Source of the DNA: Allorhodopirellula heiligendammensis
Lineage (GTDB): Bacteria > Planctomycetota > Planctomycetia > Pirellulales > Pirellulaceae
Direction of reading: 5' to 3'
Length of the DNA: 64,000 nt
NCBI RefSeq assembly: GCF_007860105.1
Contig: NZ_SJPU01000002.1
Span: 1,725,739 to 1,789,738, forward strand
Below, one piece after another: positions 524 to 31,090 of the stretch. The notes under the pieces were generated by a model, which did no database searches, was not told the DNA's origin, and was given only the letters and a program-made list of their open reading frames with translations. A program made the position numbers and the translations under genes. Positions within the stretch are counted from its first letter, which is position 1, and each line of letters opens with the position of its first letter.

Positions 524-1510
524 TCATTGTTCGTGAGGCTTTCGATCGTCCCGAAGTGTCGGATTAAGAGCATCGGGCGGTCGTTCCCAGGTTTTCAAGA
601 TCCTTTTCAGGAACACGCGGCGGATCGCGTCGTGGCCGCGATCATTCGGGTCTTCGATATTATCGTAGAACCAATAGTGCGGATCGGCAGCATCGTAGTG
701 AGCTCGCCAGAATTGGCGGCAATGTGAACCGTGACCCAAGAACGTTTCATAGAGATCGACGACATGCACATGATCACGGTGCGCGGCCACCTCTCGAATC
801 ACAGCATTGTATTTCGCATGGATCGCCAGACCATCGGGCCAGTCGGGTAGGAAGATGCTCGGCGCATCTCCGACTCCATCGGTCGGGTCGTAGATGTCAC
901 CCACATAGATCACGCACCCGCCGGGAAACCGTGACTGTATCTCGTCGAAAATTGTCCGTAGACGCGCGCGGAAGTTCTCTATCCAAGGTCCTGCTTGTTC
1001 GATCGTGGCACCGTACATGGCACCTTCAGCAGGTGGGCGGCGACCATAGGAGTGGATCAAGTCGTTGCCGCCCGTGGTCATGACGACCAGGCCAAACACG
1101 TCGTCGGGATACGTAGGGACTTGAGTTTGGAGTGTTTGCAGATGGTCGATTGAAGTCGACCCGGAAACTGCAAAGTTTTCTGCCGTTAGGTTGGGCAGCA
1201 CCACTGACAAGCACTTACCTTGCATGTCGGCAAATTCGTCAACGGGATTGTGTTGCAATCTCGCGAAATAGGTGTGGCTCTGTGATTGGGCTCCCAAGCC
1301 TCGTGTGACACTGTCGCCCAGTCCCAACAGCACGACTGGACGCTCGGTCCAAATGCGATCAAAATCGGTTGCGGGGATCATCGGCCCGGCAGGACCCTCA
1401 CCCACCGGACGGCGTAAAAAGAACTCGATGTACGCTGGGACTGAGGCGACGATGATCACACCGAGCAGCAACAACCAGCGCCGAGTTCGAGAAGGCGGTT
1501 GGGAGCTCAT
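524..1510 (-). CDS. SGNH/GDSL-type hydrolase, membrane-anchored or secreted
   Basis: A 328-residue protein with an N-terminal hydrophobic segment (about residues 11-30) that would act as a signal anchor. The SGNH blocks are visible: GDSVTRG with nucleophile Ser67, a Gly region, TGGND near residue 148 for the oxyanion Asn, and DRGH near the C terminus supplying the Asp-x-x-His pair. These enzymes hydrolyse ester bonds of lipids, acetylated sugars or peptidoglycan; the substrate here cannot be read. The gene starts 39 bases after fliJ on the same strand and may be its transcriptional neighbour, but no flagellar role is implied by the sequence. Start chosen at ATG 1510; no clear Shine-Dalgarno. 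Confidence 0.85.
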   Translation of the reverse strand: MSSQPPSRTRRWLLLLGVIIVASVPAYIEFFLRRPVGEGPAGPMIPATDFDRIWTERPVVLLGLGDSVTRGLGAQSQSHTYFARLQHNPVDEFADMQGKCLSVVLPNLTAENFAVSGSTSIDHLQTLQTQVPTYPDDVFGLVVMTTGGNDLIHSYGRRPPAEGAMYGATIEQAGPWIENFRARLRTIFDEIQSRFPGGCVIYVGDIYDPTDGVGDAPSIFLPDWPDGLAIHAKYNAVIREVAAHRDHVHVVDLYETFLGHGSHCRQFWRAHYDAADPHYWFYDNIEDPNDRGHDAIRRVFLKRILKTWERPPDALNPTLRDDRKPHEQ

Positions 1511-1549: not shown

Positions 1550-2002
1550 TCAGCGCCGCGAATGGATCATCCTCGCAATCGTCCGCTCATCGGCGGTGGC
1601 CTGCTCACGCTGTAGCTGCAGTTGATTGTAAGCCACAGACTGTTTTTCACGCAGTCGTTCGAGCCGTTTGACTTCCGCTTCGGCTTCAATCAGGCGTTCC
1701 CGTCGTTGTTCGAGTTCAGCTTCGAGTTGTTTTCGAGTCGATCCAAGCGTGTCTTGATCATCGGCAAGTTGCCGATCGTAGCGGGCCTCGTGGCGTAGGC
1801 GGTCGACAGAAATATGAACATCGGTCGCGAACCGACCAGCTGCGGCAGATCGGAGTTCATCTCGCTGTTGTTGCAAGTGATCGATCTTTTCCTGAGTATC
1901 GTTGATCGCGGTGTGAGTTTCGGTGAGTTCGCGGATCAGCTCGTTGCGCTGCTGACGCTGGAGGACGAGTAGCGATTCAAAACGAAAGTGAAAGGACGTC
2001 AC
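1550..2002 (-). CDS. fliJ: FliJ-like flagellar export chaperone
   Basis: A 150-residue, almost wholly helical protein beginning with the FliJ signature F-x-F-R-F-E-S-L-L-x-L and continuing as a long charged coiled coil (QRQQRNELIRELTETHT onward) to the C terminus. FliJ is the central stalk of the flagellar type III export ATPase and escorts export chaperones. Length matches the usual 140-150 residues. It is the last gene of the fliG-fliH-fliI-fliJ order, which supports the call more than sequence identity does, since FliJ is poorly conserved. It is separated from fliI by 117 bases that contain a palindrome. Confidence 0.8.
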   Translation of the reverse strand: MTSFHFRFESLLVLQRQQRNELIRELTETHTAINDTQEKIDHLQQQRDELRSAAAGRFATDVHISVDRLRHEARYDRQLADDQDTLGSTRKQLEAELEQRRERLIEAEAEVKRLERLREKQSVAYNQLQLQREQATADERTIARMIHSRR

Positions 2003-2119: not shown

Positions 2120-3520
2120 CTACGTTTCGTTTTCCAGGGGCTGACGCCGCTGAGTATGCGCAGCCGTCGCTGTTTGACTACTTTCCGAAGCGAGTCTCAC
2201 GATGGATTGTTGAGCTTCGATCAGCGGGGTTTGCTCATCGCTGGCTTGACGCAGCAGTTCACCGATGGGGTCGCGCATCGCGATCGCAGCGTCGATGCGG
2301 GGGTCCGTGCCGCTGCGGTAGGCGCCAATCGAAATGAGGTCCTCGCTGTTCTCGTACTGCACCATGTGTTCGCGGATCTTCAAGACGGCCGCATTGACTT
2401 CGGGGCTGACCAAATGGTTTTGCAGACGGCTGACGCTTTGCGGGATATCAATCGGTGGGAAATGGCCGCCCTGCGCCAGTCGACGATTCAGTACGATGTG
2501 ACCGTCGAGCAATCCGCGAATCGCGTCGGCGATCGGTTCATTATGGTCGTCGCCCTCGACGAGAACCGTGTAGAACGCGGTGATGGATCCTTTTTCGGTG
2601 CGTCCGGCGCGTTCTACCAATTGGGGGAGTAGATTGAAAACGCTTGGCGGATACCCTCGCGTCGTCGGTGGTTCGCCGGCCGCCAGACCGAGTTCACGTT
2701 GTGCCATGGCGAATCGAGTGACGCTATCAACCAATAGCAGCACATTGTGGCCCTCGTCACGGAACTGTTCCGCGATGCTGGTTGCCGTCCATGCGGCCGA
2801 GAGTCGCTGCGCCGCAGGCTTATCGCTGGTGGCTACCACGACCACGCTTTTTTTCATGCCCTCGCTACCGAGCGTTCGTTGGATAAACTCGCTGACTTCA
2901 CGACCCCGCTCGCCTACCATCGCGATCACGATGCGATCGGCATTGGTGCCGCGCGTGAGCATGCCGAGTAGGGTGCTTTTGCCGACACCCGAACCCGAAA
3001 AGATCCCAAGTCGTTGGCCAATACCGCAGGTCAGCAGTGCATCGATCGCCCGCACGCCGGTTTGCAGGGGTTGGTCAATTGGAGGTCGATTGAGTGAATC
3101 AGGCGCGGAATGGTCCGCGTCCACTCGCCTCAGATCGGCCGCTAACGGGCGTCCGTCCATGGGACGACCGAACGCGTCGATGACACGTCCACAGAGTGCC
3201 GGTCCGACGCGCAGCGGCATCGCATGAGCGAGCAATTGCACTCGATCACCTGCGGTCAAACGGGTGATAGTTTCCAGCGGTGCGAGGATCGGTCGGCTTT
3301 GATCGAATCCGATCACGCGGGCCAGCGTAGGTGACGCATCGGTGGGTTGAAGTTCGCAGATGGCGCCGAGCGGTGCGATCAAGCCTTGCACTGTCACCGC
3401 GTCGCCGGTCACGGCAGCAACGCGACCGCGAACCTGGAATGGGACCATTGTCCGCAGCGCCGCCTTGGTGGCATCGGCATCGGGGAGACGTGGTGGCGAC
3501 AGCCTGGGAACGTTCATCAT
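2120..3520 (-). CDS. fliI: Flagellum-specific ATPase FliI
   Basis: A 466-residue F1-ATPase-like protein. Residues about 28-100 form the N-terminal beta barrel; Walker A is GSGVGKST at 176-183; Walker B is VLLLVDSVTRFA near 265; the export-ATPase stretch RELGLAAGEPPTTRGYPPSVF follows. FliI hydrolyses ATP to energise unfolding and entry of substrates into the flagellar export gate. FliI rather than an F1 subunit or virulence homologue is favoured by the neighbours fliH and fliJ and by the usual length. Its ATG (3520) overlaps the end of fliH by four bases, so the two are probably translationally coupled. Confidence 0.95.
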   Translation of the reverse strand: MMNVPRLSPPRLPDADATKAALRTMVPFQVRGRVAAVTGDAVTVQGLIAPLGAICELQPTDASPTLARVIGFDQSRPILAPLETITRLTAGDRVQLLAHAMPLRVGPALCGRVIDAFGRPMDGRPLAADLRRVDADHSAPDSLNRPPIDQPLQTGVRAIDALLTCGIGQRLGIFSGSGVGKSTLLGMLTRGTNADRIVIAMVGERGREVSEFIQRTLGSEGMKKSVVVVATSDKPAAQRLSAAWTATSIAEQFRDEGHNVLLLVDSVTRFAMAQRELGLAAGEPPTTRGYPPSVFNLLPQLVERAGRTEKGSITAFYTVLVEGDDHNEPIADAIRGLLDGHIVLNRRLAQGGHFPPIDIPQSVSRLQNHLVSPEVNAAVLKIREHMVQYENSEDLISIGAYRSGTDPRIDAAIAMRDPIGELLRQASDEQTPLIEAQQSIVRLASESSQTATAAHTQRRQPLENET

Positions 3521-4278
3521 CGCAATTGCTCTCCCAAGCGTTGCAGTTGAGCCTCCAGACCTGCGTGGATCTCCCCGCTGTTTTGCCGGAGGACGACATC
3601 ACCAACGTCGAGTGTCGCATCGCCGATGACCTCCGAGTCTTCGGGCAGATCGGAATGGGCGAGTAACGCGCGCAGCGCCGGGCCAAGCTGCGCAAGCGTA
3701 GTGGGATGGACCGCGAGCGTCAGTCGGTTTTCAGACCGCGTGCCGTGCAAGGCTTCTCGGGCCCATCGAACTAACAGGTGTTCTGACGTCGCCGGCTTCG
3801 CCGTTTTGTTGTCCGCGAGATCGGCGGGCAATGTCAACTGTGATCGTGTGAGTTGTCCCGCCGCAGTGATCGCTGTCGTTGTCAGCGCGTCAACGTAGTG
3901 TTGCATCCAATCGTCGTATTGCTGCGTCATCTGCACGACAGCAGTGTGCAGTGACTCAACATGCGTTTTCGCTTTTTGTTCAGCTCGGCAATCAATGTGT
4001 GATTCGATCTCGGCCTGGGCGGCTTGCCATCCCTCGGCGTACCCAGCATCGTGGGCTCGCGATTTTATCTGCTCGGCCTGTTGGTGTGCCTCCTCGAGCA
4101 TCGCGTTGACCTGGAGTTGGCATTTCTGCAGTTGCTCGCGTCCCTGTTCAGCTAGATCCGATAGATTGAACTCGGTCAGGTTTGCATCGGCTGCGGCGTG
4201 GTCGGTTTCGCCACGGCGAGAAACTGTCTTGATGATCCTCGGTGCAGTCGATTTCGATGATTTGAGGATTCCAGCCAT
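3517..4278 (-). CDS. fliH: FliH-like flagellar export stator protein
   Basis: A 253-residue protein: a variable N terminus, a helical charged stretch (about residues 40-110, LAEQGREQLQKCQLQVNAMLEEAHQQAEQIKSRA) and a C-terminal domain like the V/A-ATPase E subunit. The phrase HDAGYAEGWQAAQAEIESH matches the G-x-x-x-G-x-x-x-A part that follows the FliH coiled coil. FliH forms the peripheral stalk holding and restraining the FliI ATPase. The weak conservation of the family is offset by its place between fliG and fliI. ATG at 4278. Confidence 0.85.
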   Translation of the reverse strand: MAGILKSSKSTAPRIIKTVSRRGETDHAAADANLTEFNLSDLAEQGREQLQKCQLQVNAMLEEAHQQAEQIKSRAHDAGYAEGWQAAQAEIESHIDCRAEQKAKTHVESLHTAVVQMTQQYDDWMQHYVDALTTTAITAAGQLTRSQLTLPADLADNKTAKPATSEHLLVRWAREALHGTRSENRLTLAVHPTTLAQLGPALRALLAHSDLPEDSEVIGDATLDVGDVVLRQNSGEIHAGLEAQLQRLGEQLR

Positions 4279-4316: not shown

Positions 4317-5477
4317 TCACATCGCGACGGCGACGTGACCATGACTCGATCCCGTCGCGGCACCTGTGGGCCTGCTAGCGCTCGCTGCGCTCGCCTCAGG
4401 AGGAGCCTGCCCCGCAACCCGTGCGGCCGCTAACACGGCAGCTTTCGCCTGGTCGATTTCACGTATTTCGATGCTGCCCACGGACATCAAGTGCTGGCGG
4501 ACCTGGTTCGCTTGCGAACGCGGGAGGCAGGCGATGGCGGCGTCGGCGACTTTGTTCGGCAACCCGCACAGCGCCAGGATCGCCGTCCGCGTATCAACTC
4601 GTCCCAGCAGTTCACAGAGTTTGCTGGGGGACAGCTGCATGAGCTCACGATGGGTTTGCTCGACCGACATCGCAGGTGCCGGGATTTTATTTGTTGGGGC
4701 GTGCGCAGGCGCGGCGTGGAGATGTCGCTCTGTGGTTGCCCGCGATTGAGCCTCAGGAGAGGCGTCTGGCTGATTTGTCGCCAGCGGCATTTCGGCAAGG
4801 ATGGCTTGGAGACGTGGCGAGACGTCGTGGGCGGAACCGTTGAGGTGCTCCGCCGCCGCCACGGGGTCATAGCGATCGTCATGACGATCACGGCCGCCAT
4901 GGCGAGACGATCGAGATGGGTGTTCTGCCGTCAACCGCTCCAGACGCTGGCGGAAGCTGCGGGCCAACTCACTGAGCATTTCTTCGGGAACGTCGGGCAG
5001 GCGACCAATTCGTGCCAACAAGTCTTGTCGCTGAGCTGCGCCGAGACGTGGTAAAATCGCTGCGGCGCGGTCGGGGGGAATCTCCGCGAGGACGACGGCC
5101 TTGGTCTGGGGATGTTCGTCGCGGAGGAGGCTGAGCAAAAGATCGTCACTGAGCTCGCCGAGAAAATCGAGACAGGAGGAAGTTGCTTGCGATTGCTGAG
5201 CAGCATGATGACGCAGCGAGACGGCGAACGATTCGAGAGCCCGGCGCTGTTCCATCGGATCAACGTCCACGAGAGCGGCGATCTCGCCCTGCACTCTTTG
5301 ACGGATCTCCGGCGGCATTTCCGCAATCAATTTGGCTGCGGTCGTGTCCGGCAGGTCACGCAGCACGATCGCAATCCGCCTAAGCGACGCAGCACGTCGT
5401 GATTCCTGTTCGGCGTGGGCAGCGATCGACGACAAGGTTGACAGGTCCCGCAGAATGATGGATGGCGAGGAAATCAA
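4317..5477 (-). CDS. fliG: Divergent FliG, flagellar motor switch protein
   Basis: 386 residues, longer than the usual 330-340. Residues about 30-90 match the FliF-binding N domain; 105-180 match the middle ARM domain with the EHPQT motif at 121-125; 183-270 is a Ser/Ala/His/Pro-rich linker not seen in ordinary FliG; 278-352 align without gaps to the C-terminal torque domain. In that alignment the five charged residues known from E. coli (Lys264, Arg281, Asp288, Asp289, Arg297) are Cys304, Ser321, Gln328, His329 and Glu337, and no MFxF motif is visible. An in-frame stop just upstream makes TTG 5477 the first usable start. First gene of the flagellar cluster; fliF is not adjacent. Confidence 0.85.
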   Translation of the reverse strand: MISSPSIILRDLSTLSSIAAHAEQESRRAASLRRIAIVLRDLPDTTAAKLIAEMPPEIRQRVQGEIAALVDVDPMEQRRALESFAVSLRHHAAQQSQATSSCLDFLGELSDDLLLSLLRDEHPQTKAVVLAEIPPDRAAAILPRLGAAQRQDLLARIGRLPDVPEEMLSELARSFRQRLERLTAEHPSRSSRHGGRDRHDDRYDPVAAAEHLNGSAHDVSPRLQAILAEMPLATNQPDASPEAQSRATTERHLHAAPAHAPTNKIPAPAMSVEQTHRELMQLSPSKLCELLGRVDTRTAILALCGLPNKVADAAIACLPRSQANQVRQHLMSVGSIEIREIDQAKAAVLAAARVAGQAPPEASAASASRPTGAATGSSHGHVAVAM

Positions 5478-30315: not shown

Positions 30316-30638
30316 GGTTTCGCTCGGGGCAGATGAGGTAAATGAGTGTCATCCTTGACACGAAGAGGTTGCCTCCCTGCTGCACGGACGAACACGAGTG
30401 TTAGCCGAAACCCGATTGTGAGGTGGCCATCGCCCACATTCAATCCTCCATCGGCGTCTAAAGGGCTGGAAATTGCAGAATCCGGCATTGACTGACGCTC
30501 GCGTTTGGTTCACGCTTGCTTGCTAGTGGAGCACCACACTCTCGGCGGGGTGTTACTTTTGGAAGTGTTTTCCAGTAATTCCGCCCTGAATGCGAGAGGC
30601 ATTTTGTCTCGTTGGTGACGATTCGTAAGGTTAGTTTT
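30316..30638. other. 323-base divergent promoter region
   Basis: It separates the DUF2780-like gene from the RRM gene and must hold both promoters. A TTGACA occurs at 30355-30360, but no good -10 box lies 17 bases on, so I do not call it a promoter. No RNA gene or repeat is seen. Confidence 0.45.
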
Positions 30639-31052
30639 GTGACGAATATTTATGTAGGGAACCTGTCGTTCTCGGCAACCGAAGATGACCTTCGGGGAGC
30701 ATTTGAGCAGTACGGCGAAGTGTCGGCTGTGAACATCATCATGGATCGGGAAACGGGCCGCAGTCGTGGTTTTGCGTTTGTCGAAATGGCGGAAGCCGAT
30801 GGTGCAAAAGAAGCGATTGAACACCTCGACGGTCAATCGATTGCCGGTCGCAATGTGACCGTCAATGAAGCTCGTCCCCGAGCTCCCCGCACCGGCGGCG
30901 GTGGTGGTGGTGGCGGACGCGGCGGCTACGGTGGTGGTGGCGGCGGTGGACGCGGCGGCTACGGTGGCGGTGGCGGTGGACGCGGCGGCTACGGTGGCGG
31001 CGGCGGCGGTGGCGGCGGCTACGGTGGCGGTGGTGGAGGCGACCGCTACTAA
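30639..31052 (+). CDS. Glycine-rich RRM RNA-binding protein
   Basis: 137 residues from GTG 30639, eight bases after AAGG; a TTG at 30612 is the alternative. One RRM at about 1-80: RNP2 is IYVGNL, RNP1 is SRGFAFVEM, separated as usual by FSATEDDLRGAFEQYGEVSAVNIIMDRETG. The last 50 residues are Gly-rich with Arg-Gly-Gly-Tyr repeats. Bacterial single-RRM proteins of this Rbp type bind single-stranded RNA and are often cold-induced in cyanobacteria; that regulation is not visible here. A strong intrinsic terminator follows, so the gene is a single unit. Confidence 0.93.
   Translation: MTNIYVGNLSFSATEDDLRGAFEQYGEVSAVNIIMDRETGRSRGFAFVEMAEADGAKEAIEHLDGQSIAGRNVTVNEARPRAPRTGGGGGGGGRGGYGGGGGGGRGGYGGGGGGRGGYGGGGGGGGGYGGGGGGDRY
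30894..31043 (+). repeat. Glycine codon-rich internal repeat of the RRM gene
   Basis: The 20-mer GGACGCGGCGGCTACGGTGG is repeated exactly at 30915, 30948 and 30978 inside an imperfect GGY tract. The spacing of 33 and 30 bases keeps the frame. It encodes the RGGYGGGG units and can expand or shrink by slippage without frameshift. Confidence 0.8.
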
Positions 31053-31090
31053 GACACCCTGCTTAAACATTCATTTTCGATGAATACGTT

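Follow-up and report, generated by a model that had tools for sequence, protein, structure and literature searches.

The flagellar cluster and its fliG gene

Near the beginning of the window (the whole stretch of DNA analysed, 64,000 nucleotides from the planctomycete Allorhodopirellula heiligendammensis) lies a cluster of flagellar genes headed by fliG and continuing with fliH, fliI and fliJ. The gene fliF is on another contig of the A. heiligendammensis assembly, and is nearby in many relatives. The genes of the cluster, and the parts of the FliG protein that matter for what follows, are these:

524..1510, minus strand: gene next after fliJ, at the end of the cluster, which we take to encode an SGNH hydrolase; same neighbour in the sister species Rhodopirellula solitaria
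1550..2002, minus strand: fliJ (TIGR02473, 64.9 bits, above cut-off)
2120..3520, minus strand: fliI, export ATPase, GSGVGKS present (TIGR01026, 538 bits, above cut-off)
3517..4278, minus strand: fliH (Pfam FliH, 25.5 bits, cut-off 24.1)
4317..5477, minus strand: fliG, of the type called FliG-B below, 386 aa, TTG start (Pfam FliG_N, FliG_M and FliG_C)
5178..5384, minus strand: FliG_N domain, residues 32-100, expected partner FliF (Pfam)
4929..5141, minus strand: FliG_M domain, residues 113-183, with EHPQT (Pfam; motif)
4668..4922, minus strand: spacer, residues 186-270, replacing ARM_C and MFxF (model pLDDT; identity to R. solitaria)
4407..4667, minus strand: FliG_C core, residues 271-357 (Pfam; structure model)
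4467..4568, minus strand: stretch matching E. coli FliG 264-297 in the alignment, without any of the five torque charges (MAFFT)

The putative hydrolase gene also follows fliJ in R. solitaria (L119 5728-6660), where it is 80% identical. All three Pfam domains of the window FliG score above cut-off (FliG_N 53.5, FliG_M 82 and FliG_C 47 bits); with the NCBI equivalog model TIGR00207 the protein gives 59.3 bits, so far under the cut-off of 226.7 that we regard it as a homologue of FliG and not as an ordinary FliG. It is the sole one of its organism: a search of the A. heiligendammensis genome for FliG_C gave no second match, and hence no pair of FliG genes of the Borrelia type is present. The possibility, named in an earlier note on this DNA as one that would refute its reading, that the gene might be a degenerate spare beside a second, canonical fliG is contradicted by this result, and also by the C domain being the best-conserved part of the protein (see below).

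Two side observations may be recorded here. A 186-aa ORF in the window (30510-31070, minus strand) starts with a long low-complexity stretch of Ala, Thr and Val, and elsewhere in the genome (contig C1 93600-113500) there is a CRISPR-like array at L114 11783-13286, with 21 copies of a constant 36-nt core every 71-74 nt (counted within 2 kb, the array running to the edge of that stretch).

A FliG without the torque charges

A single FliG chain normally has two functions, linking the MS ring with the C ring and receiving torque from the stator. The earlier note had claimed that the second of these was compromised in the window FliG, and on most points of sequence it was right. Residues 304-337 do lie at 4467-4568, on the minus-strand ORF 5477-4317; the E. 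coli FliG numbering used there agrees with the E. coli MG1655 gene; and in a MAFFT alignment with MG1655 FliG, Cys304, Ser321, Gln328, His329 and Glu337 stand where E. coli has K264, R281, D288, D289 and R297. When residues 275-350 and 278-353 are aligned pairwise, without gaps, with 3hjl (Aquifex aeolicus) and 1lkv, the register is the same, though each alignment is weak by itself (i-Evalue 0.32 and 2). The torque-residue segment is still charged in part (7/37 residues), and arginines are found at E. coli positions 280, 287 and 299 (Arg320, Arg327 and Arg339) in 13/13 FliG-B copies of the genus, Arg320, likewise conserved in 13/13, being one residue ahead of the R281 column. The five charges are not universal even in canonical FliG: A. 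aeolicus has Leu in the K264 column, and 7/30 canonical planctomycete rows have four of the five.

The middle domain keeps EHPQT, so that the motif for assembly of the switch is retained, as the earlier note had said. Also as it had said, MFxF is absent; it occurs as MFVF in 36/36 rows of the canonical type (FliG-A, below). ARM_C likewise seems to be missing along with the MFxF hinge, Pfam FliG_C being aligned only from its position 23. What separates the M and C domains had been described as a low-complexity linker, and this stood in part: it is a spacer, with pLDDT mostly <50 in a structure model and a single short helix (221-228), but it is not purely low-complexity, as a SPRLQAILAEM-like stretch recurs in 13/13 genus copies. 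The M-to-C spacer has 112-167 residues in the 13 genus FliG-B copies, against 69-70 in canonical rows.

The structure model was built from two sequences only and is of modest quality (mean pLDDT 61.5, pTM 0.31). It has six helices within residues 272-354, and its C domain resembles both the T. maritima C domain 1qc7 (Z 10.8, rmsd 3.2) and the stator-bound FliG 8ucs (Z 10.2, rmsd 3.0). The FliG_N part of the model matches FliG_N of FliF-FliG complexes (5tdy, Z 8.2, rmsd 4.8; 5wuj, Z 7.1, rmsd 4.5; Z middling for a helical domain). As the Z-scores are middling for helical domains, we use them to supplement the sequence matches and not as stand-alone proof. With this reservation, the fold of the C domain appears to be kept while the charges that would face the stator are gone.

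Two types of FliG in the Pirellulaceae

The loss of charges is conserved among relatives. None of the five canonical charges is present in any of the FliG-B copies of the genus (13/13 genomes have one), and among 28 further FliG-B rows from the family (G091 being counted in both sets, and L101 having no residues at the five positions) nine have no charge, 14 have one and five have two; Lys or Arg at position 264 is found in no FliG-B row. The 41 FliG-B rows form a single clade (support 1.0), with a root-to-tip length of 4.93, about twice that of canonical rows (2.3).

Beside FliG-B, 11/13 genus genomes have a second protein, FliG-A. In the canonical FliG-A rows the five positions are occupied by K, R, E, E and R/K without exception (36/36 rows, which represent 35 genes as G192 is counted twice; these rows, like those from outside the family, are best-scoring loci and not a random sample). 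About half of the family carries such a canonical FliG (100/199 genomes, taking FliG_C matches of 1e-35 or better), with at least two FliG_C matches in 98 of those 100. A further 39/199 genomes have as their best match an intermediate FliG_C class (E-value 1e-20 to 1e-34); two members of this class (G036:C1:2793655-2793975 and G179:C1:7458350-7458670) each lie some 4 kb away from a lower-scoring kind of MotA.

The two types differ in gene place. At the best-scoring (not random) loci, a few of them cut by contig ends, fliF or fliH lies within 1.5 kb of canonical FliG outside the family at 29/30 loci, of FliG-B at 29/29 and of FliG-A at 0/30. By these counts it is the torque-less FliG-B that stands in the operon, and FliG-A, with its charges, that stands alone. 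The outside-family exception from the same order (L061) groups with FliG-A in the tree.

FliG-A and the stator

The Pfam model MotA_N (PF20560) is a poor detector of MotA in this family (116 genomes matched, 61 of them above cut-off), and we therefore used our own MotA alignment (A1); for co-occurrence, MotA was taken to be present where there was an A1 match, or a PF20560 match at 1e-14 or better (22 genomes), and FliG of the canonical and intermediate classes was counted together, the latter being the E-value class defined above. Across all 199 family genomes both proteins are present in 128 and neither in 51, while 11 have the FliG only and nine MotA only; when only the 115 genomes of 95% completeness or more are counted, the corresponding figures are 92, 18, 4 and 1. 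Put differently, MotA is missing from 11/139 genomes with such a FliG, and such a FliG from 9/137 with MotA, and 15 of these 20 mismatched genomes are less than 95% complete. Fisher P-values for this association are too small because the genomes share ancestry. In the genus, FliG-A is present or absent along with MotA, rod/hook proteins and flagellin, which ties FliG-A to the whole flagellum and not to torque specifically; the link with torque that we suggest comes solely from co-occurrence taken together with the charges that FliG-A carries.

Does MotA itself bear signs of having met a charge-less rotor? Residue pairs R90-D289 and E98-R281 are described as linking MotA and FliG (PMC7564593). 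MotA of six relatives has kept R90, E98, P173 and P222 (6/6), so there is no sign in these proteins of a stator adapted to such a rotor, and the compensating changes in MotA envisaged by the earlier note are not seen. That note had left the choice between an altered stator interface and some other role for this FliG; with MotA so conserved, and with a charged FliG-A present in 11/13 genus members, the other role fits better.

What A. heiligendammensis and R. solitaria have lost and kept

MotA, FliG-A, flagellin and rod/hook proteins are each found in 11/13 genus members, and it is the same two, A. heiligendammensis (G000) and R. solitaria (G045), that are without all four. In A. heiligendammensis MotA gave 0 matches at 1e-20 with alignment A1 and 0 at 1e-3 with PF20560; Flg_bbr_C of the rod and hook gave 0, against five in each of the 11 relatives, and Flagellin_N 0, against 3-5 in each. 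We considered whether one of the genome's nine MotA_ExbB matches might be a MotA after all; by eye they resemble proteins of the ExbB/TolQ type, several of them beside ExbD-like genes, and a true MotA query gave only a partial hit (33% identity). An assembly gap is an unlikely cause of the missing genes, as two assemblies (97.6% and 99% complete) are without the same ones.

Both species keep FliF (one match per genome in 13/13 genus members), FliG-B, FliH, FliI and FliJ. In A. heiligendammensis Pfam and NCBIfam models also find FliE, FliM, FliN, a second FliN-like protein and FliO; the nine retained flagellar genes that were read are all open frames, and FliF has a C-terminal end SW(I/V)GEAA, as in the MotA-bearing G115. 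The second FliN-like (FliMN_C) protein (147 aa, L106 9720-10163) has no flagellar neighbour that we could recognise in a 20-kb stretch. For the export gate, E. coli FlhA, FlhB, FliP, FliQ and FliR and relatives' FliP and FliR were used as queries, and no match to FlhA, FlhB or FliPQR was seen in the 1.08 Mb read of the 7.18-Mb genome; this was a weak search, in that it failed, with FliM of E. coli as query, to pick up the FliM present there.

At three loci the genes seem to have been removed cleanly. At the fliF locus, MotA-bearing G115 has a HATPase-like gene followed by flgB, flgC, fliE and fliF. At that of A. heiligendammensis only the HATPase-like gene, fliE (L206 9095-9730, by Pfam) and fliF were found, with no flgB or flgC, and at that of R. 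solitaria only the HATPase-like gene and fliF, with no flgB, flgC or fliE. At the fliN locus, motA-motB-fliL of G091 (L169) was not found in A. heiligendammensis, where fliN-fliO stay. After fliJ, other genus members have, where readable, a 216-aa gene and fliK (Pfam-supported in G115), neither of which follows fliJ in A. heiligendammensis or R. solitaria. Pfam supports the naming of FlgC, FliE, FliK, MotB and FlgE in the relatives, while the ORFs that we take to be flgB and fliL have no Pfam match; these names, with flgD and similar ones, are partly by recognition and are presumptive.

The small HATPase_c-like protein (about 140 aa) is encoded upstream of fliF whether or not the genome has MotA (L206 8905-9327 in A. 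heiligendammensis, L208 9007-9426, L210 7614-8036, L238 11899-12339 and L237 11580-11966), and is possibly a regulator of the flagellar base; the label is from Pfam scores below cut-off in the two that were tested, and from similarity in the rest.

A comparable state is found in a second lineage of the family, the genus g39. Neither MotA nor FliG-A was found in two of its members, G038 and G088 (99% and 95% complete), whereas MotA is present in two others (G128 and G139). In G088, fliF, FliG-B, fliH, fliI and fliJ stand together behind a HATPase-like gene; in G038, FliF is fused to FliG_M-FliG_C in one 827-aa ORF (L237 9131-11614) without a FliG_N match.

Selection on the retained genes

In the trees, A. 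heiligendammensis and R. solitaria pair as sister species (support 0.973 for FliI and 0.997 for FliG) in the midst of relatives that have MotA, and the loss is therefore derived, most simply having occurred once in their ancestor. Between the two, fliF, fliG, fliH, fliI and fliJ are under purifying selection (dN/dS 0.10, 0.15, 0.13, 0.09 and 0.18, respectively, at a dS of about 1.4-2.2, which is near saturation). Identity between their FliG proteins is 87% in the C domain, 73% in M, 66% in N and 31% in the linker. The C domain is thus constrained even where there is no stator, and, being the best-kept part of the protein with no stator to meet, it should have another partner.

Comparison with two MotA-bearing pairs gives a mixed picture. 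For fliG, dN/dS (0.154) is below both pairs (0.18 and 0.19), but for fliI it is higher than in either (0.091, against 0.056 and 0.040), and fliH (0.132, against 0.129 and 0.055) and fliJ (0.177, against 0.099) exceed one pair; selection may have relaxed to some extent. Loss may even be ongoing, as no fliE is found at the R. solitaria fliF locus.

A scaffold without rotation?

We consider it rather probable that FliG-B is a ring scaffold with no role in torque, and that in A. heiligendammensis part of the flagellar base has been kept without a flagellum. FliG-B retains what would be needed for building rings: FliG_N to face FliF, FliG_M with EHPQT to face FliM, and a C domain. It is without the stator-facing charges, ARM_C and the MFxF hinge, and is encoded between fliF and fliH-fliI. 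It would therefore most likely scaffold the MS ring, the C ring and the export ATPase, tying FliF to FliM/FliN and to the ATPase complex. FliG-A, the lone gene with all the charges, would be the one that most likely takes torque from MotA, and in relatives that have both, the two FliG proteins would presumably serve in one motor. This assignment of roles is based on which domains each protein has, where its gene lies and what it occurs with. The ancestor of A. heiligendammensis and R. solitaria would then have lost the stator, FliG-A, rod, hook and filament while keeping FliF, FliG-B, FliH, FliI and FliJ (and, in A. heiligendammensis, FliE, FliM, FliN and FliO). The result would be a non-rotating basal machine without a flagellum (the flagellum-less state of both species being our reading of their gene content), most likely an export complex or a membrane-anchored ring complex.

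The readings that compete with this one overlap with it and with each other, so that their likelihoods are not to be added up to one. One of them, which coincides with our own in part, is that the flagellum has gone and that FliG-B and its neighbours are a remnant drifting towards loss. The absence of matches to the stator, FliG-A, rod/hook and flagellin would suit such decay, as would the R. solitaria fliF locus without fliE and a dN/dS above that of the MotA-bearing pairs for fliI and above that of one pair for fliH and fliJ. Even so, we think it unlikely: the five charges are gone also in 11 genus members that have MotA, so that charge loss most simply precedes loss of the stator; all nine genes are open, with dN/dS of 0.09-0.18 (at dS 1.4-2.2) and a C domain that is better conserved than the rest of FliG; and genus g39 has a similar compact set with no match to MotA or FliG-A.

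It seems still more doubtful that the relatives have two machines, a flagellum using FliG-A and an independent, flagellum-derived secretion apparatus using FliG-B, of which only the latter was left here. FliG-B does occur without FliG-A in A. heiligendammensis, R. solitaria, G038 and G088, and in A. heiligendammensis it is only the FliG-B set that is left. However, each of the 13 genus members has a single FliF match, and in G003, G018 and G043 fliF, FliG-B and fliI are clustered with flgE, motA and motB, which places FliG-B in the flagellar gene set (the gene names in these clusters being, for the most part, those that we presume by recognition). Least probable of all is that the MotA-bearing relatives use FliG-B as their rotor, with Arg320, Arg327 and Arg339 making the contact with MotA, for in spite of its place in a fliF-fliG operon, the conservation of these arginines in 13/13 genus copies and a modelled C domain like that of stator-bound 8ucs, the MotA residues for a canonical FliG are kept (6/6), a fully charged FliG-A coexists with it and occurs with MotA, and FliG-B is constrained where no MotA was found.

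Returning to a scaffold role for FliG-B, we put forward more tentatively, and with somewhat less than an even chance of being right, a further idea: that in A. heiligendammensis and R. solitaria (with G038 and G088) a pared-down flagellar machine serves not motility but some other end, for instance export or a polar membrane scaffold, and that this separation became possible because FliG had already split into one copy for torque and one for scaffolding. The parts of such a machine would be the FliF ring, the torque-less FliG, FliM/FliN (in A. heiligendammensis) and FliH-FliI-FliJ, with no rod, hook, filament or stator (rod, hook and flagellin having been searched for in the genomes of the genus).

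Comparison with known systems

We found no earlier report of a split FliG in planctomycetes in the open-licence literature. The nearest parallel is in Borrelia burgdorferi, where FliG1 is said to serve torque and FliG2 synthesis of the flagellum (PMC7225975, a review citing Li et al. 2010). There, too, one species has two FliG proteins, one for torque and one for building the flagellum; going by that description of Borrelia, the difference is that in the Pirellulaceae it is the operon copy that is without the five charges, ARM_C and MFxF, and the charged copy that is a lone gene.

Retention of flagellar base genes outside a flagellum has a precedent in Chlamydia pneumoniae, for which at least three flagellar orthologues of unknown role (FliI, FlhA and FliF) are described, others being absent; FliI has ATPase activity, and contacts were reported between FliI and FlhA and between FlhA and FliF (PMC2830194). 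Compared with what is described there, A. heiligendammensis keeps in addition FliE, G, H, J, M, N and O. Lysobacter enzymogenes, likewise to judge from its description, is non-flagellated and has kept many flagellar genes, motA, motB and fliE being among those lost; a split of FliG does not figure in that description (PMC9927559). Non-flagellar type III secretion systems (NF-T3SS) offer a likeness of another kind, as flagellum-derived export machines that do not rotate. In the survey of PMC3459982, as far as its account goes, NF-T3SS were found only in Chlamydiae, Proteobacteria and Verrucomicrobia, and FliG, FliE, FlgB, FlgC, MotA and MotB were treated as specific to flagella; A. heiligendammensis differs in keeping FliG and FliE, though it has no match to MotA or the rod/hook proteins.

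Biological meaning

The two functions of FliG, then, apparently reside in two genes in these planctomycetes, and the charged copy has gone together with the stator, whereas the other has stayed under constraint: a natural separation of function. The split would provide a clean test of the roles that FliG has besides rotation, and the reduced gene set of A. heiligendammensis may give a lead on how flagellar bases turn into machines for purposes other than motility.
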